Origin: a virus
IMG/VR virus record: IMGVR_UViG_3300042879_004314
Coordinates: 1-20,199 of that record
DNA length: 20,199 nucleotides
Direction: 5' to 3' (one strand)
In this document: positions 1,128 through 20,199 of the stretch, piece after piece
Layout of the letters: the number at the start of each line of letters is the position of its first letter
Numbering within the stretch: position 1 is the first letter of the stretch
Notes under the pieces: generated by a model
The model's database searches: none
The model's input: the letters and a program-made list of their open reading frames with translations, nothing else
Told to the model about the DNA's origin: nothing
Program-made: the position numbers and the translations under genes

Positions 1128-4100
1128 TTATTTTAATAATTCTTGAATCCAAGCTGTTCTATTAATTGAATTTAAAGCTCTTTGATAATCTAGTATAATA
1201 GCACTACTTGCTCCTCTATTTTGAGTTTTAGTTATTGCTGTTGCGTTATTAGTATAATCAATATCTTTATCTAATTCATTACCAAATATACCCTTATATT
1301 TACCTAATACTAGAATTCTAATAGATAGATTTTCATCAAGTACACTATCTGGGTTATTAACTATATTAATTCTTGCTCCTTCTACGATTAAAAGATTTTG
1401 AATTTTTTTATAATTACCTTTAGATGTAATTTGTGTTAATCCTCTACCTCTATATTTATATCCATCTCCTACTTCATCATTACTTCCTCCGCTATAAACA
1501 AAATTTGCTGTAGATTCAGGATTTGAAAATATATTTCTTATTTGTTGATCTGTTTTTCCTTTTGTTTTTGTTTTAAATATAGATTTAATTCTTGCTAATC
1601 CTTCTGGTGTATTTGCATTGTAACGTAAATTTTCTACTTTATTAGGAACTAATCCTGCTTCAGCTTGTGCTACAGTTAATATAGCTGTTAATTGTGATTT
1701 ATCTGTTATTCCATAACTAAGAGATGTTTGTATAATTTTTTCTACAATATCTCTATATGATTCAGGTATAGGATCTCCTTCATTAGTAGTGATACCACTC
1801 GCGTCATTTATAACATCATTTAAAAGAAATCTTGTTGGTTTATTTGTTGTTTTAGGTAATGATAAAGAGTCAATAGTTGTATTCCACATATTATTTTCAA
1901 TAGTGTGGTTTACTCCTTTAATTATAAATACCATTTCTCTATTATAATTAGAAGGTAAATAATTTGTATCAACTGTAAATTCTTGATAAATTTTCATTCC
2001 TGATAGGCCTGCCATAGTTAATGAAATATTAATAGGAATAAATCCAGTTGATGTAGTAGCTGATCCGGTCTGTTCATACATTAGTTGCTGACCATAAGAA
2101 ATAAATGTATTTAAAACAGAACTATAAGAACTAAATGCATTTGTATCCCAAACAGGTAATGCATTATTACCCATATTCATACTTTTAACAAATGTAATAT
2201 AATCATTTACAGTAGTTTTATATTGATTATCAAGTGATGATGATGGTAAAAGATAAGGATCACCAATAAACTCAATTAATCTACTATTTAATCCTTTATT
2301 TAATCTAGATAATGCAGTAGCATCTTCTCCTACTACTCTTTGACGTGCCGCGGCTCCAATAGTAATCATACTAGCAAATTGAGGTGTTAACTCAGTTTTC
2401 ATAGTAAAATCTTTTATAAAACCTGCTGAGCCTGAGCCTTCAGATCTTAATGGATTATATCCATATAAATCAAACACAGATGATTCTGTATTTAAGTTAC
2501 CAAGTCTAGCTAAAGCTAATGTTTCTTCACCAGCTACTCCTAATGGAACTTTTTTAGCTTCATTTATTTTATTATTAAAATAAGCTATTACTTCATCTTT
2601 TTTATATAATTTATTTTGATCTATAAAACGAAGTGTATTTGTATCTTCATCAATCACAGGAACTATATTATTAATACTACCTAAACAACTACCAATAGTT
2701 TGTCCTAATGATTTAAAAAAATCAACTAATGCTATTTTAGAACTTGGTGCTGTTATTAATTCATCTAATTTATCTTTTATAAATTTAAAATTAACATAAA
2801 CATTCATAAGATTTCCATATGTTTCTTCTTTAATAGATACTTCAAATGGAGAAGCAGTTGGTATAATTTTAACATCATTAATTCCTACTGTTATGTCTTT
2901 TTTTACTAATATTTTACTTGGATCAGTACTTAATTGAAAATCTAAACAATTTATTATATTAGTTTCAGAATTATAATCTATATTTAATATTTTATATTTT
3001 GAATTTCCTTGGTCAATAGTAGGTATAATACTTTGTTCAATTATTTTTAATAAAGCTCCTAATCGAATATAATAAGAAGGACTATCTTCAGTAGCACCTG
3101 ACCAGGTTTGTTTTAACACATCTTGTAATTTGTTATTACTTAATGATGTGGTAATTGATACACTATTAATATTTTTAGTTCCACTAGTAGCAGCATCCAT
3201 TAGCCTTTTTAGAGTATCTAATATAGCATGAATATTACTTTTATTACGTTCATTCACTATACTAGTAGGACTATAATCATCTCCTGCTGTTGCTGTTTCA
3301 ATAGATGTTAAAACTTTTGTTGCTACTGTATTTGGGTCAGCTGTTAATATATTTACTTTAAGTGATTCAATAATATCTCCTACACTTCTAACTGTTAATA
3401 CAATATTGTAACTTCCATCAGAATTAAAATTCCAATTAAAATTAACTACTTTACCTAATATAGCATCATAATTACCATTACTATCATAACGAGCATTAAC
3501 TATTTGACCTAAAAGTATATCTACATTAGGTGAATCACTAAAAAACTCATTTTGTAATGATTTAGGTGTTGTTTGAGGTGTTCCTTTATTATCAAGATAA
3601 ATAGTATGACCCCACTCTAATAACACATAAAAACCTAAACGTAAATATAATGTATCAATTATTTCAAATTGAGATTTATCCCAACATTTAATATTAATAG
3701 TTGCTGTTTTTAATGAACCTATATTTTCACTTTTAATATTAGCTGATGTTATACCAGGCATTGGTCTTAAACCAAAACTATTTGAATCTGTTCCCCATCC
3801 ATAAGAGTAATTATTAAAAACTGATGCTGTTGAAGGTTTTATTTTAGGTATACCTCCTTTTAAAGATCCTCCTAGTTCAGTTACACCAGCAAATAAAATA
3901 GCTTTTTTAGCTAATTCAGCTCCTGTTAAATTTAAAGTACCAATATATGGGTTATTAAGTTCTGCTGAGTTTTCAATGCTAACAGAAGACATTAATCTTA
4001 CAAATGATGTAGAGGCATTAATATAATTAACAAATTCTGGTGTTCTAGGGTTGTTAGAATTAAAACCAGAAGCTAAAGCTTTTTGACGAACTTTTATTTG

Positions 4101-6799: not shown

Positions 6800-9319
6800 T
6801 TATGTTGTTTTATAAGTACCCATTGAAACTGCTGTACCTAATCTAGTACTGTCTATATATATTACACCTTCTTTATTTAATATGTTGGTTAGTAATTTTT
6901 CTACAGCCATCATACGATCTACTAATGGTGTTAAGTTTATTTGAGATGTAGATGATGATCTTATATTTTTATCTAAAGGTGATTGGTTATTACCTTCTAA
7001 ATTAGTGCCAGCTACAATAGTATCATTATCATTAAAAGAGTATGTTCCTTCAGGTGCTGATAGGACACGCTTACCATATCCTGGCGATACAGCGTCATCA
7101 GCTAAATATGATTTACCTATAGCATAAATTGATGCTGCTGCTGCTGCTGCTAATAAAGCCCCTACAACTGGTATACCTATTACAGTGTTCATAGCTTTTA
7201 AAGCTAAAGTTCCTAATACTGATTTACCTTCTTTTTTGGCAAATAATAATTTTATTTTATCATAAGCGATACTAATTAATGTTTCATTATTTACTTTTTT
7301 TATAGCTAAATAAGATAAAGTAAAAGCACCAGCTAATACATAAGCTACATCCTTAGCTTCAGTTAATAATCCAACTATATAACCTAAACCTTCACCTATT
7401 TTACCTAAAGTATATGTCACTGGTGTTAATATAACATTAATTAAAGGTAATATGTTAGTAACTAAATTCATAAATGGAGATACTATTTGTAGTATAGGCT
7501 CGGCTAATGATACAAATAATTCTCTTAATTTTTCTATAGTGTTATTAAAACGCTCGGCTACTGATTGTTGTTGAAATTGTAATGCTAATTGATCATTACC
7601 TAAACGTTTTTTAGCTTCTTCTAAACTAGTTGATTTAACTAATCTATCAAAAGCTTGTTTTGCTGTTTCTCCTTCTTCAGCTGATAATGCTGCTAATGCT
7701 TCTCTATCTATTAATGATTGAGCTAAGTCATCTCTAGTTAATCCAGCAGCATTTGCAATAGCTTCTTGTTGGATTCTGTTCATATTAGCAAAATCAGCAG
7801 ATGTACCTACTTGTCTTGCTATTTCAGCGGCGGCTCCAATTGAGTCACCTTGTAATGCTAAATATCTAGCTTGTTCAAAATTTAAATCTTTACCAGTTAA
7901 TAATTCAGCTTCTAATTCATTTGATATTGATTGTTCAAAATTTAATAATCCTGATGCTATTTTATCAGCTTGTTCTAAATTTAAACCAAATTGTTTTGAT
8001 TTAACTACAGATTCAGCTAAAGCTGATGCTCCACCTTTTAATGATAATTTAAGGGCTGCTGATGCTTTACTAACTTCTCGTAAAACATCTTTTTCATTAA
8101 CTACTAATTTATTTTGAGCTGCATATGCTTCTGCTGCTCCTAATATTTCAGATGTATTATCTTCTAATGTTTTACCATTAACTAAAGATATTTTTTGAAT
8201 ACCTATTAATTCATCATTAGTATAACCTGCTTGTTCTCTTAATTTAGTAAAAGTAATTAAATCTTTTTCATTTAATACAGCATTAGAACCTAATGATTTA
8301 CCAACAGCTATTACACTTTCATTTAATCCTCTAGTATTAACAGCGGCGTCAGCGGTTAAATTTGCTGTTTGAGTTAATTGAGTATTTAATGTTAAAGCTT
8401 CTCTATAACTCATATTAAAGGCTTTAGCAGTATCACCTGCTAATTTGTCTGTACCTTTAAGAGCTTCTACTAACTCTTTTGTTAAAAGTGATAATGGATC
8501 TTTAAATGATTCTAATAATTGAGCTCCTGCTTCTTTGATTCCTACTTTTAATACTTTAAATTTATTAACAAAACTATTAACATATTTAGGATCTTTTTCA
8601 AGTTGTTCAGCGAATTCTCGCATTTTTTCATTAACTTTATCTAAACCTAAAGCATTCGCTAAACCTCCAAGACCTAATTTATCTAAAGCAGTTTGGACAC
8701 CACTAACAGCAGCGCCTCCTATACCCATTAATTTGCTAATTCTTTCTTCTTGTTTAATTCGAATATTAGCTTTATCAATAATAGTGTTTATACTAGAATC
8801 TTCATCTTTTAAAAAATTAACAGCTGACTTTTGTGATTCAGTAAGATTTTTAAAAATTGATGTTCTTCTATCTATTTTTTCATTGATGCCAGCTTCTTGT
8901 AATATTTGAGTAGCTGCTAATTTAGTTTCAGATTGGTATTTTAATATTTTTTCTTTATGCTGTTCTAATTGTTTTTTAGATAATTTATTGATGCCTTCTT
9001 CTTCATATTTAAGATTTTTAGCTTCTTTAATTATATTTTTAAAACCATTAGAAAACTCTTTAGTTGAACTTACAGCTTTTGGATCAATTTCTTTAACTAT
9101 TGCTTTTAAAGTTGTTGAAAGATCACTAAATGAAGATTTTGTATTTTCTACACGATATTGAACACCTTCTAAAGCTGTTTCTAATTGCTGGATAGTTGTT
9201 TCAGCATTTTTAATATTAGTAACATCCCAGTCCTTAAATGGATTTCGGTCGCCTAGTGCTTTATAAGCTTTCTCTATTCGTCCTAAAAGTTTTTCTATAT
9301 CTTCTTTACTAGTCGCCAT
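6800..9319 (-). CDS. Tail tape measure protein (839 aa)
   Basis: This protein sets tail length and is packed inside the tube. It is the longest helical protein in the module. The first 270 residues are Lys/Glu-rich and coiled-coil-like. The middle is Ala/Leu/Glu-rich. Hydrophobic stretches follow at about 625-680 and 715-735 (VVGALLAAAAAASIYAIG), which are typical of segments that enter the host envelope. The C-terminus has a DDAVSPGYGKRVLSAPEGTY element then DNDTIVAGTNL, a pattern I associate with tape measure C-termini of Bacteroidota phages. At roughly 0.15 nm per residue it would predict a tail near 125 nm. It is preceded by a hairpin and a promoter-like motif. The run of alanines at 7134-7151 is encoded by six GCA repeats on the coding strand. 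Confidence 0.87.
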   Translation of the reverse strand: MATSKEDIEKLLGRIEKAYKALGDRNPFKDWDVTNIKNAETTIQQLETALEGVQYRVENTKSSFSDLSTTLKAIVKEIDPKAVSSTKEFSNGFKNIIKEAKNLKYEEEGINKLSKKQLEQHKEKILKYQSETKLAATQILQEAGINEKIDRRTSIFKNLTESQKSAVNFLKDEDSSINTIIDKANIRIKQEERISKLMGIGGAAVSGVQTALDKLGLGGLANALGLDKVNEKMREFAEQLEKDPKYVNSFVNKFKVLKVGIKEAGAQLLESFKDPLSLLTKELVEALKGTDKLAGDTAKAFNMSYREALTLNTQLTQTANLTADAAVNTRGLNESVIAVGKSLGSNAVLNEKDLITFTKLREQAGYTNDELIGIQKISLVNGKTLEDNTSEILGAAEAYAAQNKLVVNEKDVLREVSKASAALKLSLKGGASALAESVVKSKQFGLNLEQADKIASGLLNFEQSISNELEAELLTGKDLNFEQARYLALQGDSIGAAAEIARQVGTSADFANMNRIQQEAIANAAGLTRDDLAQSLIDREALAALSAEEGETAKQAFDRLVKSTSLEEAKKRLGNDQLALQFQQQSVAERFNNTIEKLRELFVSLAEPILQIVSPFMNLVTNILPLINVILTPVTYTLGKIGEGLGYIVGLLTEAKDVAYVLAGAFTLSYLAIKKVNNETLISIAYDKIKLLFAKKEGKSVLGTLALKAMNTVIGIPVVGALLAAAAAASIYAIGKSYLADDAVSPGYGKRVLSAPEGTYSFNDNDTIVAGTNLEGNNQSPLDKNIRSSSTSQINLTPLVDRMMAVEKLLTNILNKEGVIYIDSTRLGTAVSMGTYKTT

Positions 9320-9330
9320 TTAAGTATTTT

Positions 9331-9342
9331 GTTATAAATATC
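9331..9342 (-). promoter_or_regulatory. Candidate promoter motif upstream of the tape measure gene
   Basis: The minus strand reads GATATTTATAAC, sharing the ATATTTATAA core with the other intergenic copies. It starts right after the hairpin at 9343-9369 and ends 11 bases before the tape measure ATG. It has one difference (C) in the TATAAT-like part and is the weakest copy. Confidence 0.4.
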
Positions 9343-9369
9343 AAAGGCATCTATTTTTTAGATGCCCTT
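9343..9369 (-). terminator. Possible intrinsic terminator overlapping a stop codon
   Basis: The minus strand forms an 8-bp perfect stem GGCATCTA/TAGATGCC around an AAAAA loop, extendable by one G-T and two A-T pairs. It is followed by TTTGATATTT. The 5' arm and loop encode the last residues of the second-frame ORF, whose TAG stop lies in the 3' arm. The T tract is interrupted, so termination may be partial. Confidence 0.5.
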
Positions 9370-9644
9370 GTATGATAAGTTGGTGTATTTGATTGTTGTA
9401 ATTTTTGTTTAGCTGATTTAACATCAGCAAAATCTATTTTATTAGGATCTGATTTTGTAGATTTTGAATATGCTTCTGATTCTTGTTGTTTTTGATCTGC
9501 TATAAAATTATATGTAGCCTGTCTTAACCATATTGGCATATTATATACAGTTTCATGATCATAACCACCATTTCCATAATAACATATATCATGGATGGTT
9601 TTAAATAGATATGATCTATAACTCAGAGTCAGGCCAAAAAAAGT
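9351..9644 (-). CDS. Tail-assembly chaperone second frame, probably expressed by +1 frameshift
   Basis: A stand-alone reading would start at the ATG at 9539 and give 62 aa. The same frame is open without a stop back to 9644, and between 9644 and 9539 it has no ATG, GTG or TTG. This upstream part reads as plausible protein (KTIHDICYYGNGGYDHE) running directly into TVYNMPIWLRQATYNF. The ATG at 9539 therefore looks like an internal methionine of a longer product. The frame overlaps the 3' end of the gp26/gp51-like gene by 29 bases and is +1 relative to it; a run of seven T lies in the overlap. Joined, the two frames would give 333 residues. Position between tube and tape measure is where frameshifted tail chaperones (G/GT type) sit. 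The C-terminal part is Gln/Lys/Ser-rich and probably helical. Expression as a separate 62-aa protein remains possible. Confidence 0.68.
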   Translation of the reverse strand, partial: TFFGLTLSYRSYLFKTIHDICYYGNGGYDHETVYNMPIWLRQATYNFIADQKQQESEAYSKSTKSDPNKIDFADVKSAKQKLQQSNTPTYHTRASKK

Positions 9645-10353
9645 TTAAATTAATTGGAATAGTGACCTCCGTACCACCATCTAAAACATATTTTAAATCT
9701 ACGTCAGGTTGAACTTGTTTAATATAATCTCTTAATGATCTAGAATCTCTAGCCAATAAATAATTATCTACAAATTCTCTAATTGTTTGTTCTTCTCTAT
9801 CACCATTAACTGATGTAATAATATATTTTAAACGAGTAGATAATTCAGGTGAATTTTCTTTGTTAATTTTTTTAAGACCTTCTAATTCTTTATCAATTTT
9901 CTTTTCGTCAGCTGATGTTAATATTTTAAATGTAATTTTAGTACCTAAATGAGGTAAAGTATATGAAAATTCATTAACTCCTTTAGTGATTAAAGATTCA
10001 TCAAATGGTTTATTATCTAATGATGATAAATCTACAGTATGTGATTGTCCATCATATTCAAATGTGTAATTACCTCCGTAACCTAAAATACGAGCAGCTA
10101 TAAATAAAGCGTTTTTATCACCAATAATTAAATCATCATAATTAATTTTAGTAATAATTAATGATTGAAGCATTTTATCTAAAACTGTACCTTGTTTGAT
10201 ATAATTCTGGTTAGTTAAAATATCTTCTTCTTTCGCCGTCATATATTTCATTTCGATTTTACCGCTTGATAACGGGTTATCTTCAGAATATAGCAAGCCT
10301 TTTGATGGTAGTTCTACCGTTTCTGTTGGGAATTTGTGTTTATTGTCTTCCAT
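9616..10353 (-). CDS. T4 gp26/gp51-like baseplate hub assembly protein / tail-assembly chaperone (245 aa)
   Basis: The protein matches the T4 gp26/gp51-like family by pattern. It has ETVELPSKGLLYSEDNPLSS near the N-terminus, then KIEMKYMTAKEEDILTNQNY, DLIIGDKNALFIAARILGYG, and the terminal INLNFFWPDSEL. In T4, family members catalyse assembly of the central baseplate hub. Here the gene sits directly after the tube and before the tape measure, so a tail-assembly chaperone role is also likely. Full family length supports a complete protein. Its 3' end contains seven T in a row at 9636-9642, followed by the TAG stop at 9616-9618 and the overlapping second frame. It is preceded by an 18-base AT motif at 10378-10395 and a terminator for the upstream unit. 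Confidence 0.8.
   Translation of the reverse strand: MEDNKHKFPTETVELPSKGLLYSEDNPLSSGKIEMKYMTAKEEDILTNQNYIKQGTVLDKMLQSLIITKINYDDLIIGDKNALFIAARILGYGGNYTFEYDGQSHTVDLSSLDNKPFDESLITKGVNEFSYTLPHLGTKITFKILTSADEKKIDKELEGLKKINKENSPELSTRLKYIITSVNGDREEQTIREFVDNYLLARDSRSLRDYIKQVQPDVDLKYVLDGGTEVTIPINLNFFWPDSEL
9636..9642 (-). other. Candidate frameshift or transcript-slippage site, run of seven T
   Basis: The coding strand reads TTA AAC TTT TTT TGG CCT in the upstream frame. Moving one base forward lets two Phe codons re-pair perfectly and enters the frame of the following ORF. The usable window runs from 9644 (after a TAA in the second frame) to 9616 (the TAG in the first). RNA polymerase slippage on the same run would give the same result. 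A sequencing error in the homopolymer is the alternative. Confidence 0.5.
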
Positions 10354-10396: not shown

Positions 10397-10428
10397 GAGA
10401 AAAAAAGAAGCTCGCCAAAAGGCGAGCT
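10397..10428 (-). terminator. Intrinsic terminator after the tail tube gene
   Basis: On the minus strand AGCTCGCC pairs perfectly with GGCGAGCT around a TTTT loop, and the stem is followed by TCTTTTTTTCTC. It is a GC-rich 8-bp stem in a very AT-rich setting, 31 bases after the tube stop codon. This should end the fibre-sheath-tube transcription unit, at least in part. Confidence 0.85.
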
Positions 10429-10459: not shown

Positions 10460-10948
10460 TTAGAAATTTAATACACAATAATCTGGTTGTACTGTCATTG
10501 TGATGTTTTGAGCCGCTGACTCATTATCCCAACTGTAATCACCAAAGTTTATGTCTGTAATTAAAGCACCAACAATGATCCATTCTGAAACGATATCACC
10601 TACTGGTCCTAATACGTTTAATGTTAAGTCTTTCTTGTAGAAATCACTGTAACCATCTCTACCAGTTACTGATTCGTGATGTAAACGTAGCCATTCCATT
10701 ACTGCCTGAGCTCCTGAAGGAGTGATTGGATCAAATAATGTCATTTGAATAGCACCCCATTTAGTTTTACCTTTCACAAAACGTTGAACGTTAATATGAT
10801 TTAAAACCACTGTATCTTGAGTTAATGACACTGCATTTACGCCTTTTACAATAAATGCTGGTATACCAGTCATGCTTAATAAAAAGCGGTTTTGCTGTTT
10901 TGGCTCAAATTGGGTGAAAAATATATCGTTTGAATTTACAATTGCCAT
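10460..10948 (-). CDS. Tail tube protein, T4 gp19-like (162 aa)
   Basis: The product forms stacked hexameric rings of the inner tail tube. The length is that of gp19-type tubes. Motifs typical of the family are QQNRFLLSMTGIPAFIVKGV near residues 18-37, GKTKWGAIQMTLFDPITPSG near 59-78, and the C-terminal DIVSEWIIVGALITDINFGD followed by YSWDN. It has no signal peptide or membrane segment. It follows the sheath gene, the classical order in contractile tails. A copy of the intergenic motif at 10976-10990 lies upstream, and a strong terminator lies downstream, so it may be transcribed both with the sheath and on its own, in keeping with the high copy number needed. The leader is A/T-rich without a Shine-Dalgarno motif. 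Confidence 0.9.
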   Translation of the reverse strand: MAIVNSNDIFFTQFEPKQQNRFLLSMTGIPAFIVKGVNAVSLTQDTVVLNHINVQRFVKGKTKWGAIQMTLFDPITPSGAQAVMEWLRLHHESVTGRDGYSDFYKKDLTLNVLGPVGDIVSEWIIVGALITDINFGDYSWDNESAAQNITMTVQPDYCVLNF

Positions 10949-13042: not shown

Positions 13043-16000
13043 TTATCCTGTAGATACATTTACTGTTGTACTAATTGAATATATTATACCTTGTACTTCT
13101 GTATTAAACCAAATTGTTTGAGGACTTGTTATGCTTCCATTTATACGTACAGCAAAGTCACTATTTGCATTTGTTACTGCGTGATTAATTGAACCTGAAT
13201 TTGATATAGGTACAATATTACTACCTGAAACTATAGTATATGTAGGATTAAAATCTCCAATACCGCTTAATGTTGATGCTGATCCTGTTTCTGCAAGACT
13301 AGTCCACCAATGTATTAATTGTTGTGGTCGTGTTAACGCAGAACCATCTACATCTTTAAAATCAGCTATAAATGATTTATTATTTCCTGATGAAACTACT
13401 GATAAACTACAACTTACAAAATTATATGTTGAAAGTCCTATAATATTTCCTGTTACTGTTAATGAACCTGAAACTATTTGACTTCCTGTCACTACTAATG
13501 AACCTGTAACTATAGTATTACCATTTACATCTACTGTTGCATTTGGGGTTGCTGTTTTACCAAATGCTACTTGACTTCCTGTAGCATATAGTTGAACATT
13601 ACCTAATCCATCTGATAAAACTACTGTAGAGGTTAAAGCAGTTGTTCCAGCATATTTACCTATAATAGTATTATAATTCCCTGTTGTTATAGATTCTCCA
13701 GATCCAGATCCTATAAGAGTATTACTACCACCTGTAGTTAATAAATCACCGGCAAAAGATCCTACCGCTGTATTGTAAGCTCCGGATGATATTGAATATA
13801 ATGCTTGGTATCCTATAGCGGTATTTGCATCTCCAGTATTATTAGCAATTGTAAGACTACCGTTTAAAGCTTCAACTCCTACAGCTGTATTATTGCTAGA
13901 TGTCATATTATACATCGATTCAAATCCTATAGAAGTATTATTACTTTTATTTCGTGAGATAAATAAAGCTCTATGTCCTACTGAAGTGTTATTATCACCA
14001 TTAATGTTATAAGGTAAAGTTTCATACCCTAAAGCTGTATTATTAACACCTATAGTATTATCACGTAAAGTAATAGCTCCTAAAGCTGTATTTCTACTTC
14101 CTGTTGTAGTATTTTGTAAAGTAAAAAGTCCTACTGCTGTGTTGAATTGTCCTGTAGTAATCATATTCATAGAACCACTACCTACCATTGTATTTCCAGG
14201 TATATTAGAATTTCCTAAACCTATTTTTATAGTACTAACTGTTAAAATATTACCATCAAATATTAAATTAGAATTTCCGGCGGCGATATTAGATGAATTT
14301 TTATAAACTACCTGATTTGCTGAACCTGCTACAGGACCTGTTGCCCCTGATAAACCTGAGGTACCTGATAGACCTGAAGTGCCTGATAAGCCTGAAAGAC
14401 CTGATGTACCTGATAAACCTGATGTACCTGATGCTCCAGCTTCACCCATAGGTCCAAAACCTACATTAGTAAATCCTTCATTAGATGTACTATAATCTGA
14501 AATGAAATATAATGGATTTCCTATTGATCTAGCTGTTGTATGTCTTAATGTATTATTTTGATAATATCTTACATTATAACCATCATAAGTTATATAAAAT
14601 TTATCACTTAAACTATAGGTTCCAGTATATTGTACATTGGTTAATTCAGTAATAGTAAATTGATTACCACTTGCTTCAAATTGGAAACTAAAGTCTATTA
14701 AAGTCGGATCTTCTGGCGTTCCAGATATGGTTTCTATTAAGCCAAAAACTACAGCTATATTGTCATTTGTTGTTTGGGCAGTAGTGTAAACTCCTCTTGC
14801 ATATCCTTGAGTTGAATATACATAAGCGTCATAACTGCTACCACCTCCACCTGTGTTTATAAATGTTGATGAATTAGTTCCATAAGAAGTATTTGAAAAT
14901 ACAGGAGTAAAAATTGGAGTTCCTATAAGACCAGATAAACCTGAGGTACCTGATAGACCTGATTCACCTGAAAGACCTGATAAACCTGAAGTTCCGCTTA
15001 AGCCTGAAAAACCTGACAAACCTGAAGCGCCGCTTAAGCCTGAAAAACCTGACAAACCTGATGTACCTGAAAGGCCTGAAGTACCTGAAAGACCTGATGT
15101 ACCTGATAAACCTGATGTACCGCTTAAGCCTGAAAAACCTGATAAGCCGGATAAACCTGAAGTACCTGATAAACCAGATTCACCTGAAAGACCTGATAAA
15201 CCTGATGTACCGCTTAAACCTGAAAAACCTGACAAACCTGATGTACCTGAAAGACCAGATTCACCTGAAAGACCACTTGTGCCTGATAAGCCTGATAAAC
15301 CTGATGTACCTGATAAGCCTGAAAAACCTGATAAGCCAGATAAACCTGATGTACCTGAAAGGCCTGAAAGACCTGATGTACCTGAAAGTCCTGATAAACC
15401 AGAAGCTCCTGATAGGCCTGACGCGCCTGAAAGACCTGATGTGCCTGAGAGACCTGATGTGCCTGAGAGACCTGATGTGCCTGATAAACCTGAAAGTCCT
15501 GAAGTGCCTGAAAGACCTGATGTGCCACTTAAACCTGAAAGACCAGATGTACCTGAAAGACCAGATAAACCTGATGCACCCGATAAACCTGAAGTTCCAC
15601 TTAGGCCGGATAAGCCTGAAGCACCGCTTAAGCCTGATGCGCCTGATAAGCCTGAAGTTCCGCTTAGGCCTGAAAGGCCTGAAGTGCCACTTAGACCTGA
15701 AAGACCTGATGTGCCACTTAAGCCTGAAGTGCCACTTAAGCCTGATAAGCCTGAAGTTCCGCTTAGGCCTGAAAGGCCTGAAGTGCCACTTAAACCTGAT
15801 AGACCAGATGTGCCGCTTAGACCTGATGCTCCTGAAAGACCTGATGCTCCTGAAAGACCAGATGAGCCTGTTAAACTTAAATCAGTTCTATAGACTATAT
15901 CTCCTAAATTATTAGAGACTAATATTCTTGTTTCAGTTGTGCCGGCCGCTAAAGTAGGTAAAGCTAAACTTCCTAAAAGGGAAGTACTTCCTGTAACTTG

Positions 16001-17494
16001 AAAACTACCTGATATTTTAGTAGTTCCTATTAATGTTTGAATATCATTAGTAGCATCACCAAACTGGTTAGAACCAGATGAATAAATCACAGATGAAGTT
16101 TCATATATTGTTGTTAAATATGTTATACTACCTGTTCCGTTAACTGTTAAATTTCCAGTTACTGATAATGTTGTTCCGTCATAAGTGAAATTAGAAGAAC
16201 CTGCTGGATTATTAGATCCGTCTTTGTAAACTACTTGATTTGCTGAACCCGCTATAGGACCTGTTGCTCCTGATAAACCTGAAGTGCCACTTAAGCCTGA
16301 TGTACCTGAAAGACCTGATAAGCCTGAGGTGCCACTTAAGCCTGATAAACCTGATGTACCACTTAGGCCTGATAAACCTGAAGTACCACTTAAACCAGAT
16401 GTGCCACTTAGACCTGAAAGACCTGAAGTGCCACTTAAACCTGAAAGACCTGAAGTTCCGCTTAGGCCTGAAGTACCGGATAAACCTGATGTTCCATTTA
16501 AACCTGAAAGACCTGAAGTTCCGCTTAAACCTGATAGACCTGAAGTTCCGCTTAGGCCTGAAAGGCCTGAAGTACCACTTAAACCAGATGTACCTGAGAG
16601 ACCTGAAGTTCCGCTTAAACCTGATAGACCTGAAGTACCTGAAAGACCTGATGCGCCTGATAAACCTGAGGTGCCACTTATGCCTGATGTACCTGATAAG
16701 CCTGATAAGCCTGATGTACCTGATAAGCCTGATAAGCCTGATGTACCTGATAAGCCTGAGAGACCTGAAGTACCGCTTAAGCCTGATAAGCCTGATGTAC
16801 CTGAGAGACCTGATGTGCCTGATAAACCTGAAGTGCCATTTAAGCCTGAAAGACCTGATGTACCGCTTAAACCTGATAGACCTGATGTACCTGAAGTGCC
16901 ACTTAGACCTGAGAGACCAGATGTACCGCTTAAGCCTGATAAACCTGAGGTGCCGCTTAAGCCTGACAGACCTGAAGTACCGCTTAAACCTGATGTGCCT
17001 GAAAGACCTGATAAGCCTGAGGTACCACTTAAGCCTGAGAGACCTGATGTGCCTGAAAGACCTGATGTACCACTTAAGCCTGATAAACCTGAAGTGCCAC
17101 TTAAGCCTGATGTACCTGAAAGACCAGATAAACCAGAAGTACCGCTTAGGCCTGAAAGACCAGAGGTGCCGCTTAATCCTGAAGCTCCTGAAGCTCCTGA
17201 AACTGTAGGTGTAATAGCAAATGAAGCTGTTAATGCATATGAAGCTGATGTAGCTGTAAGCGCGTAAGAAGCTGTAGTAGATGTAAATGAATTTCCTGCG
17301 TAAGATGCAGTACCAGTAAATGAGGGAGCAGTAATATTGCCTGTTACATCTAATGGACCAATAACATTTAATGAACCACTTATAGTTATATCATAAGCTG
17401 AATTACCTGTTAAGGCATCAATTGATTGAGAAACTTGTTGAGCTTGTACGGTTGCACCTGTTGTTATGCCCGCATTAGACAGTACTTGAGCCAT
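13043..17494 (-). CDS. Large tail fibre with collagen-like Gly-X-Y blocks and lectin-like insert (1483 aa)
   Basis: This is a putative trimeric receptor-binding fibre. Residues 1-99 form the attachment end, with repeated TASYAL-type motifs. Block I (100-411) is an unbroken Gly-X-Y tract, mostly GLS and GTS. A spacer (412-542) holds a [17 protein letters not shown] module and GSL.V.G strands. Block II (543-857) is a second tract, with extra GFS, GES and GAS triplets. Residues 858-1013 resemble a concanavalin-like lectin domain ([16 protein letters not shown], then [20 protein letters not shown]). Block III (1014-1052) is short. A second [13 protein letters not shown] module follows, then eleven N-T-x-[VIL]-G repeats like a YadA-type head, and a C-terminal domain with [15 protein letters not shown]. 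Collagen-like tracts in phage fibres form triple-helical shafts. Proline is almost absent from the tracts, which is unusual. It follows a terminator and a promoter-like motif. Confidence 0.88.
13640..14200 (-). repeat. Eleven N-T-x-[VIL]-G repeats in the fibre head
   Basis: The encoded protein carries GNTMVG, FNTAVG, RNTALG, NNTALG, NNTSVG, NNTSIG, NNTAVG, ANTAIG, YNTAVG, SNTLIG and YNTIIG, each separated by about 12-25 residues. The spacing and the Asn-Thr-aliphatic-Gly core recall beta-roll head repeats of trimeric adhesins of the YadA type. Coordinates are approximate. Confidence 0.8.
14339..14455 (-). repeat. Collagen-like block III of the tail fibre
   Basis: Thirteen Gly-X-Y triplets (residues 1014-1052) connect the lectin-like insert to the second [13 protein letters not shown] module. 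It starts with GPMGEAGAS, one of the few places where proline enters a triplet, and then turns into GTS/GLS. Confidence 0.85.
14924..15868 (-). repeat. Collagen-like block II of the tail fibre
   Basis: About 105 Gly-X-Y triplets (residues 543-857) in units of 9 and 18 bases. Most are GLS and GTS. GAS triplets cluster in the first half, and GFS and GES occur only in the C-terminal half of this block. Codons for the same triplet vary (GGT TTA TCA, GGT CTT TCA, GGC TTA AGC), so the DNA is less repetitive than the protein. Confidence 0.93.
16262..17197 (-). repeat. Collagen-like block I of the tail fibre
   Basis: About 104 uninterrupted Gly-X-Y triplets (residues 100-411). Two GLN triplets, with AAT-type codons at 16836 and 16494, lie in matching contexts 342 bases apart, which suggests an older internal duplication. 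One GIS triplet also occurs. Glu and Phe triplets, present in block II, are absent. Confidence 0.93.
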
Positions 17495-18372: not shown

Positions 18373-19119
18373 TTAAAGTTTACTTTTTCTTAGTTCTTTT
18401 AATTCTTCTAAATTATATTCTATAGATTCAATATCTCTATCTATAAAAGTACTATCTAAACCTTTATGAATTACTCCTCCTGGTAGGCATAGTATAAAAG
18501 GATTTTCAGTTAGTTTACCTGGTGATTTTGGATTCCAATGAGTTAATTCCCAATCTAAACCAGCATTCCATGATGCATTCATGTATGGATAATCATACAT
18601 TCTATCTAAAGGAATAGGCATCATATTTTTAATATCTTTAACACGCATAACCATATGTCCAGCTCTACAAGCTCTTTTTTCACATAAACATCCAAATTTA
18701 GTTTTAATCCAACTTAATTCTTCATGTTCTTTACTCATATAACCTGTAGCTACATACTTGTTAGGGTATGTATTTAAAATATCACAATATATACTTATTG
18801 GATCTTCAAATATATTATCTTGGTCTGTAAATTGAATAAAATCATAATCATCTAAGTTTATGTTTTCTAACATTTGAAGTAAAGCACCTCGTTGACCTAA
18901 ATTAAATTCTGAGTTGTAAACTATAAAGTTATTATTAATATTTTTATTAATAATTTTTAATATTTCCTCTTTATTTTCTTGATCTGAGTTTTCAACTATG
19001 TAAATAGTGTTTGTTAATCCAGATTCTTGGATATCTTTTAATGAGTTAATAACATTTTTAATATGATGAGGTCTATTAAATGATGTTAATAAAGTAATTA
19101 TTTTATTAGATTTTGACAT
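18373..19119 (-). CDS. Family 2-like glycosyltransferase (248 aa)
   Basis: This is a GT-A fold enzyme that would transfer a sugar from a nucleotide-sugar donor. It begins with IITLLTSFNRPHHIKNVINS (the nucleotide-binding start of GT2 proteins), has NLGQRGAL at 73-80, and a DXD-type metal site TDQDN at 98-102 (Asp99, Asp101). The later part shows GYMSKEHEELSW, CRAGHMVMRVKDI, ASWNAGLDWELTHW near 182-195 and GGVIHKG near 214-220, consistent with the acceptor side. There is no membrane segment, so it acts in the cytoplasm. The ATG follows the stop of the GT9-like gene by two bases, so both are one operon. The acceptor is not evident; virion protein, DNA or host surface glycan are all possible. 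Confidence 0.83.
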   Translation of the reverse strand: MSKSNKIITLLTSFNRPHHIKNVINSLKDIQESGLTNTIYIVENSDQENKEEILKIINKNINNNFIVYNSEFNLGQRGALLQMLENINLDDYDFIQFTDQDNIFEDPISIYCDILNTYPNKYVATGYMSKEHEELSWIKTKFGCLCEKRACRAGHMVMRVKDIKNMMPIPLDRMYDYPYMNASWNAGLDWELTHWNPKSPGKLTENPFILCLPGGVIHKGLDSTFIDRDIESIEYNLEELKELRKSKL

Positions 19120-19121
19120 TA

Positions 19122-20199
19122 TTATTTATTTAAAACCTTTAATATATCTTTTATTTGGATTAAATTCATACATTCTTTTCTTTCTGGTTGTTGAGCGTCT
19201 AACCACCATCTTCTATCATAGTAATTTTTACCACAATCTTTTTCTATATATTTTACTCTATAATGTTTAGCATGATCATTATAAAATGGTGTTAAACAAA
19301 TACCTACATTAGGTTTAATTGAAGAAGCAAAATGGTGAAAAAATGTATCTACACTTAACCATAAATCAGATTCTTCAATTAAACCAGCTAATTCAGGAAT
19401 TGATTTATCTAAAACTTTTTCATCTACTCCGGCTTGACAATAAGGAGAAACAGGTAATTTAGTATAATATGAAGGTAATTGGTTATCTTTATGAGAGCCT
19501 ACTTGAACAACATAATAACCTAATTTTTTTAATTCATATACTAATTTAAACCATTTAAGTTCTGACCAATCTTTATTAGAATCTTGTCCTCCAACTTTAG
19601 CAGCTGTAATACTAATTAAAGCTAATGGTTTGTTTGTGTTATTTGTAATTTTATTTTTAGGTCCTGTATATTTTAAAATATCATTTATTTCTCGTTTTTC
19701 TCCATATAATTCAAAAAATGCATCTATAATTGTAGTTATGTTATTTGTAGACCCATAAGTATAAACAAATCGTTTATATCCTCCAAATAATTCATCATCC
19801 CAACCAATAAATCCTTTACATTTAATATGTTCTAAAGAAGATGGATATACACAAGATATATAACAATCTTTACCTATTTTTTCTAATAAGGGATAAGCCA
19901 TAACATGATCACCTAATCCACCATCTATATAAATTATTCTGCTGTAGAATAAAGGGTGTGATCTTTTTTTATCATATCTTTCTGAATCTGAAGATATATC
20001 TGGATAGAATGATGCTTTAGTTTTTTGAGTAATTAAATCCGCTATAAACCATATTATAGATTGATATTTAGTGTCCCAATTAAGGCGTAATAAATCACTT
20101 GTTTTTGCTAATAAATAGGTATTATTAAGTATATCCCAGTCTTTAAAGTCAAAGTGTGTATTAGACTCATCTATAATTAAACTATATTCAGTTTTAGTT
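19122..20199 (-). CDS. GT9/heptosyltransferase-like glycosyltransferase, 5' end off the window
   Basis: The frame is open from the stop at 19122 to the right edge, giving 358 visible codons. The ATG at 19901 would give 259 aa but cuts off the donor-side N-terminus. Just before it lies IIYIDGGLGDHV continuing into MAYPLLEKIG, the glycine-rich G-x-G-D start of GT9 (ADP-heptose transferase-like) proteins. The C-terminal nucleotide-binding part includes IPELAGLIEESDLWLSVDTF then FHHFASSIKPNVGICLTPF, where a conserved D-x-x-x-x-H is visible. Residues upstream of the GT9 core (FYPDISSDSERYDKKR and others) are an extra N-terminal region whose start is not in view. The enzyme probably adds a sugar to a glycan or protein acceptor together with the adjacent GT2. 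Confidence 0.8.
   Translation of the reverse strand, partial: TKTEYSLIIDESNTHFDFKDWDILNNTYLLAKTSDLLRLNWDTKYQSIIWFIADLITQKTKASFYPDISSDSERYDKKRSHPLFYSRIIYIDGGLGDHVMAYPLLEKIGKDCYISCVYPSSLEHIKCKGFIGWDDELFGGYKRFVYTYGSTNNITTIIDAFFELYGEKREINDILKYTGPKNKITNNTNKPLALISITAAKVGGQDSNKDWSELKWFKLVYELKKLGYYVVQVGSHKDNQLPSYYTKLPVSPYCQAGVDEKVLDKSIPELAGLIEESDLWLSVDTFFHHFASSIKPNVGICLTPFYNDHAKHYRVKYIEKDCGKNYYDRRWWLDAQQPERKECMNLIQIKDILKVLNK

Follow-up and report, generated by a model that had tools for sequence, protein, structure and literature searches.

A probable +1 ribosomal frameshift at a conserved Phe-Phe site in a T4-type tail assembly chaperone gene of bacterial viruses

Background

Tail assembly chaperone genes of T4-like phages were reportedly identified by Vladimirov and co-workers in 2022. 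As this work is rendered in papers citing it, some T4-like phages possess separate short and fused chaperone genes (PMC10885494), and poly-T -1 signals occur in T4-like TAC-N genes (PMC12846349). Frameshifting in tail chaperones is of a known kind, T4 having been stated as the exception (PMC5009743). Here, we analyse a 20,199-base IMG/VR virus record from a virus of bacteria (the whole stretch is referred to as the window), in which a gene of this type is followed by an overlapping open frame displaced by +1.

Organization of the chaperone locus

The relevant features of the window are as follows:

10460..10948, minus strand: tail tube gene, gp19-like (phrog_4542, E 6e-24), directly upstream of the chaperone
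9616..10353, minus strand: frame-0 gene, TAC-N, assigned by its phrog_150 match to the T4 gp26/gp51 type; 245 aa, ending ...NLNFFWPDSEL
9628..9642, minus strand: putative shift site TTT TTT TGG CCT GAC, codons 238-242; under synonymous constraint, variants keep YUU followed by Y
9351..9635, minus strand: TAC-C, C-terminal domain in the +1 frame, 94 aa, beginning GLTLSYRSYLFKTIHDICYYGNGGYDHETVYNMPIWLRQATYNF...
9351..9539, minus strand: 62-aa ORF from an ATG within TAC-C, not regarded as a gene in its own right
6800..9319, minus strand: probable tape measure gene by position, 839 aa, directly downstream of the chaperone

On the minus strand, frame 0 (10353-9616) ends ...AAC TTT TTT TGG CCT GAC TCT GAG TTA TAG. 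The initial annotation had placed a run of seven T at 9642-9636, inside a 29-base overlap of the two frames, and had described the second frame as open from 9644 to 9351, including 105 bases before its first ATG (9539); these coordinates hold, as does its arithmetic, by which the span 10353-9351 comprises 1003 bases and a +1 shift gives a product of 333 residues. Its placement of the locus between tube and tape measure genes is likewise borne out by the phrog_4542 match upstream and, downstream, by Flavobacterium phage immuto, in which the gene at the tape-measure place is annotated as tail tape measure protein. A family search with the 839-aa probable tape measure protein itself gave no match. 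With the tube gene upstream and the tape measure position downstream, the locus occupies the position of a tail assembly chaperone.

Terminator-like hairpins flank the chaperone cistron on the minus strand at 10409-10428 and 9342-9370 (0.4 expected by shuffling). The former, which has a T tail, lies between the tube and chaperone genes, where Bacillus phage SP-15 has an annotated terminator at the same place; the latter overlies the end of TAC-C, ahead of the tape measure gene. The hairpins may determine in what proportions the tube, chaperone and tape measure proteins are made. Elsewhere on the minus strand, inspection by eye suggested that the product of 13043-17494 (1483 aa), in which long SGLSGTSG repeats occur, is probably a virion protein of the tail fibre or adhesin-like type, and that two glycosyltransferase-like ORFs (18373-20198) adjoin the tail genes.

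Identity and predicted structure of TAC-N and TAC-C

The sole family match of the frame-0 protein was phrog_150 (baseplate hub; E 4.3e-10, residues 5-239), to which T4 gp26 and T4 gp51 also belong. The related proteins of L084 and Rhodothermus phage RM378 pass the cut-off of PF12322 (Pfam T4_baseplate); the Pfam search with the window protein yielded nothing significant, PF12322 included. An hhalign comparison with cyanophage and T4 gp26 (probability 70.6, E 3.9e-5) covered the entire protein as far as its last Phe-Phe. The two halves were modelled separately. The AlphaFold model of TAC-N (pLDDT 90.6) resembled in fold the hub subunit of SP-15 and, with E 6.6e-13, predicted baseplate hub assembly proteins of the T4-like kind. 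No solved relatives were found by sequence, and a fold search of the PDB gave nothing significant; its second rank was the HK97 tail chaperone 2ob9 (E 0.87). Judged by sequence, the frame-0 gene is the N-terminal part of a tail assembly chaperone of the T4 gp26/gp51 type.

With TAC-C numbered from the codon directly following the site, its AlphaFold model has a pLDDT >90 over approximately residues 1-60, with predicted helices at residues 4-20, 27-31 (short) and 35-61 (long). Fold searches matched it to small, uncharacterised proteins of phages; a weak match (E 1.4) was the tape measure chaperone of Citrobacter phage Moogle. Comparison of TAC-C with the C-terminus of a single gp51 by hhalign gave E 0.34, though with GYDHETVYNMPIWLR aligned to NYSLNSISKMIPAER.

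Conservation of the +1 frame

A first set of 80 IMG/VR relatives of the window locus shared the +1 relation between TAC-N and TAC-C without exception (80/80), which is far more than expected by chance and confirms that the relation at this locus is real. Addition of relatives of Microcystis phage Mel-JY01 and of a 484-kb phage widened the set to 211 distinct junctions; in 208 of them, the +1 frame is open for at least 100 bases beyond the frame-0 stop, or as far as the contig reaches. Three junctions depart from this: those of L257 and L262, discussed below, and that of L020, which resembles a copy of a good site interrupted by an isolated stop. Cultured phages with the +1 relation are Flavobacterium phage immuto, Microcystis phage Mel-JY01 and Rhodothermus phage RM378.

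Among 138 diverged representatives whose sequence is readable there, the 30 codons after the site contain 541 stops in frame 0 and none in the +1 frame. The possibility that the C domain is carried by the -1 frame, as would apply to a shift of the X_XXY_YYZ type, failed the same test (269 stops). Differences at +1-frame codon positions 1, 2 and 3 numbered 505, 367 and 1152, respectively, in 111 independent pairs over the same codons. The excess at third positions and the lack of stops indicate translation in the +1 frame already ahead of the first ATG, in agreement with the initial annotation, in which these 105 bases read as plausible protein.

Constraint and variation at the proposed shift site

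Synonymous constraint was scored in 139 columns of the gene for 139 representatives, and the four most invariant columns were all codons of the site. The second Phe codon is TTT in 132/132 and the first in 133/137 cases, Pro is encoded by CCT in 137/139 (usage 0.41), and Asp by GAC in 94/96 (usage 0.26). Constraint on the Pro and Asp codons is accounted for by double coding, as the +1 frame here reads G-L-T; that on TTT is not explained in this way and points to a slip at these codons. TTT TTT T occurs only once in 350 other ORFs of the loci (116,212 codons). Since in-frame TTT-T recurs elsewhere in the window gene, the tetranucleotide alone is insufficient.

The 211 junctions comprise TTTTTTTGGCCT (175), TTCTTTTGGCCT (12), TTTTTTTTCCCT (5), TTTCTTTGGCCT (4), CTTTTTTGGCCT (3), TTTTTTTACCCT (3), TTTCTTTACCCT (2), TTTTTTTGGCCA (2) and singletons. 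In the family to which the window belongs, each variant whose +1 frame is open retains at least one codon able to re-pair at +1 (TTTCTTTGG, TTCTTTTGG, CTTTTTTGG, TTTTTTTTC, TTTTTTTAC, TTTCTATGG); TTTCTTTGG, TTCTTTTGG and CTTTTTTGG keep the YUU-Y slip codon, the T run being broken in most. The site of L049-L051, TTTCTTTGGCCTGAC, has no run of seven T, and the cultured phage immuto and other relatives have TTTCTTTGG, TTCTTTTGG or TTTCTATGG, without a long homopolymer but with a P-site codon that re-pairs at +1. In TTCTTTTGG, the second codon alone can re-pair at +1, and in TTTCTATGG or TTTCTATTC the first codon alone (UUU to UUC). Where the second codon is CTA (L084, L272, L274), slippage is again confined to the first codon (UUU C). 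Judging from these sequences, members may differ in the codon at which the slip takes place. The initial annotation had looked to relatives for conservation of both the frames and the homopolymer; the frames are conserved, but the T run is interrupted in most site variants.

The RM378 protein, about 26% identical to that of Mel-JY01, has the site TTTTTTTGGAAT (TTTTTTTGGAATAAG) with AAT in place of the Pro codon, so CCT is not essential. Slippage at CCU was considered as well and rejected; it would fit the constraint on this codon, but the conserved Leu (CTN) of the +1 frame explains it equally, and, apart from RM378, CCA stands at this place in two members whose +1 frame is open.

As to possible stimulators, the RNA downstream of the site folded no more strongly than controls (mean z -0.29 to -0.65, compared with -0.58 upstream as a control), and neither a Shine-Dalgarno sequence nor another purine motif was conserved at the spacing known from release factor 2 (RF2) in the aligned relatives. 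A rare A-site codon was rejected as a stimulator, since TGG is not rare (8.3 per 1000 codons). The A-site codon of members is TGG, TTC or TAC, and never a stop as in RF2.

Lineages without the proposed shift site

In L257/L269 (a 187,848-base contig) and L262/L270, the sites are changed to TTCTTGTATCCT and TTCCTTTGGCCA, respectively, the +1 frame is no longer open, and a distinct ORF in another frame, with its own ATG 2 or 5 bases past the stop, encodes the C domain. Both fall inside the window's family; the normal shift site is present in L271, to which L257 is 66% identical. The retention of CUU U in L262 despite its closed +1 frame is a point against the proposed mechanism. As far as the sequences tell, a slip site is no longer preserved once the C domain can start separately, and the frameshift seems to have been replaced in this lineage (L269, L262/L270) by a separate, ATG-started C-domain gene. 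The separate genes (in L269 at 2620-3200) have a new N-terminus (MENIDNLLREIQ..., MNIDRFLQELQ...).

Alternative explanations

The initial annotation had named transcript slippage besides a programmed frameshift, and had proposed that a sequence with six T would make the gene continuous. Homopolymers are indeed prone to assembly and base-calling errors; however, more than 200 distinct sequences as well as isolate genomes agree, some of them without a long homopolymer. Relatives with six T were looked for and none was found, nor any continuous version of the gene, all frame-0 products being 230-269 aa in length. This explanation is refuted by the relatives and can be dismissed with near certainty. 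A seven-base run is short for efficient slippage of RNA polymerase. Such slippage, which would produce a mixed mRNA population, could draw on the seven consecutive T of most members, but the variants TTTCTTT, TTCTTTT and TTTCTAT interrupt the run and yet still require the +1 frame, so that we regard it as very improbable. A -2 ribosomal shift as in Mu-type phages would reach the same frame, and both the T run and TTTCTTT permit re-pairing; at 12 distinct junctions with TTCTTTTGG, however, UUU would face UCU, with a mismatch in the middle, where a +1 shift pairs perfectly, and a -2 shift thus appears unlikely. It is the variants which break the T run while keeping YUU-Y that exclude a base-calling error and speak against transcript slippage and a -2 shift. 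Of the two processes named initially, the ribosomal +1 shift is thus favoured, and transcript slippage is unlikely.

Expression of the C domain could also dispense with frameshifting, if a separate downstream gene started at ATG 9539 or if ribosomes re-initiated after the frame-0 stop. The ATG is present in many members, and L257 and L262 do use a separate ORF. On the other hand, coding constraint extends over the 105 bases upstream of the ATG, which corresponds to residue 33 of TAC-C, so that a product starting there would miss the first two predicted helices. Its Met belongs to a conserved NMPIWLR motif, in which it is replaced in immuto (EFPIWLR), L271 (NFPIWLR) and L122 (ELPIHLR); the ATG is thus absent at that place, and of the 201 relatives whose +1 ORF is readable, 18 lack any ATG within it. 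Independent initiation would, moreover, leave the synonymous constraint on the T codons unexplained. In the relatives that do possess a separate start, the site has been lost. We consider it highly unlikely and judge from the sequences that the 62-aa ORF (9351..9539) is not an independent gene and that TAC-C would be made as a TAC-NC fusion only.

Proposed mechanism

The conserved +1 relation, the absence of stops and the constraint on the site leave a programmed +1 ribosomal shift to a fused tail chaperone, as suggested initially, as the best reading: very probably, two forms of a T4-type tail assembly chaperone, TAC-N and TAC-NC, are made from the locus, the latter via a +1 shift at the Phe-Phe site. 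Most ribosomes would terminate in frame 0, releasing TAC-N (245 aa), while a fraction would slip one base forward at the Phe-Phe codons, with the peptidyl-tRNA on YUU and a pyrimidine next. In the window, tRNA-Phe on TTT 9639-9637 (or 9642-9640) would move to the overlapping TTT, with GGC as the next codon, leading to TAC-NC (333 aa); in members with CUU_U, the Leu tRNA would re-pair on UUU. The initial annotation had envisaged re-pairing of two Phe tRNAs at +1; a single peptidyl-tRNA (Phe, or Leu on CUU) suffices, slipping one at a time. Slippage of the P-site tRNA by +1 on YUU_U at the conserved Phe-Phe motif is the most likely mechanism in view of the site variants. Formation of the +1 product would then need the YUU-Y codon. 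If the lambda gpG/gpGT pair is taken as a model, the tape measure protein would be covered by TAC-N, and the C domain of the less abundant TAC-NC would bring in tail tube subunits. Occurrence and efficiency of the shift, the slip codon used in each member, and these roles of both products we infer from homology and location.

Comparison with known systems

The T4-like chaperones share with the window locus membership in phrog_150 (PF12322 in relatives), the combination of a short TAC-N and a long TAC-NC, and a site at the Phe-Phe end of TAC-N. However, T4 has separate short and long genes, 26 and 51, and the poly-T shifts of T4-like phages, as far as they are reported in papers citing the 2022 work, are -1, in contrast to +1 on TTT TTT TGG in the window. 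The gp26-gp51 junction of cyanophages resembles that of the window in the homologous protein, a T-rich Phe-Phe site and a C domain in another frame; it differs in its T_TTT_TTC heptamer and in a -1 frame free of stops (P-SSM2 and 80 relatives, 81 loci). Residue 4 of this -1 frame is Met in 81/81 cyanophage loci (L312, L313-L392), and with the frame being free of stops, a -1 shift and separate initiation are both possible there.

Lambda (gpG/gpGT), P2-like phages and Adele also make their chaperone in two forms, from genes close to those of tube and tape measure, but their shifts are -1, on other slippery sequences (GTTTTT in Adele), and their proteins are unrelated or distant (PMC5009743, PMC12846349). 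The tail chaperone of the archaeal myovirus HSTV-2 of Halorubrum was reported to involve, very likely, a +1 shift as proposed for the window (PMC5009743); it is the sole +1 tail chaperone that we found cited, in a literature in which the 2022 T4-like work is represented by the papers citing it. The P-site slip itself resembles that of the release factor 2 gene prfB (CUU UGA C), where +1 slippage likewise proceeds from CUU/UUU onto UUU (PMC5009743, PMC10885494). The slip codon of this type, CUU/UUU U, is found in the window's family, and members with CTT TGG C differ from the prfB site solely by UGG for UGA. Unlike the chaperone site, with its sense codon, prfB has a stop in the A site, a Shine-Dalgarno stimulator and autoregulation, and neither of the latter two was found here. 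In Listeria phage LIS04, Streptococcus phage GXN1 and Bacillus phage SP-15 (L085, L086, L268), the +1 frame is also open after TAC-N; these phages share an NCC_CGA_TTY stretch, their slip context differs from that of the window, and a search with SP-15 gave no further relatives.

On balance, the sequences favour, if with some reservation, an undescribed +1 cassette, YUU_UGG_CCU, in a large group of T4-related phages widespread in the environment, at the homologous Phe-Phe site where cyanophages use -1; the direction of the shift would have switched inside a single protein family, at least one lineage having since turned to a separate, ATG-started C-domain gene. Some members of the +1 group have Bacteroidota hosts. 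The annotation of immuto, Mel-JY01 and RM378, in which the C domain is unannotated or hypothetical, is corrected accordingly. With no evident stop codon, RNA structure or Shine-Dalgarno sequence, the cassette could represent a minimal +1 shift at a sense codon. One homologous position would present several solutions, namely a -1 shift in cyanophages, a +1 shift in this group, a separate C-domain gene in L257 and L262 and separate short and long genes in T4, so that ideas on how the direction of frameshifting evolves can be tested at one and the same place.
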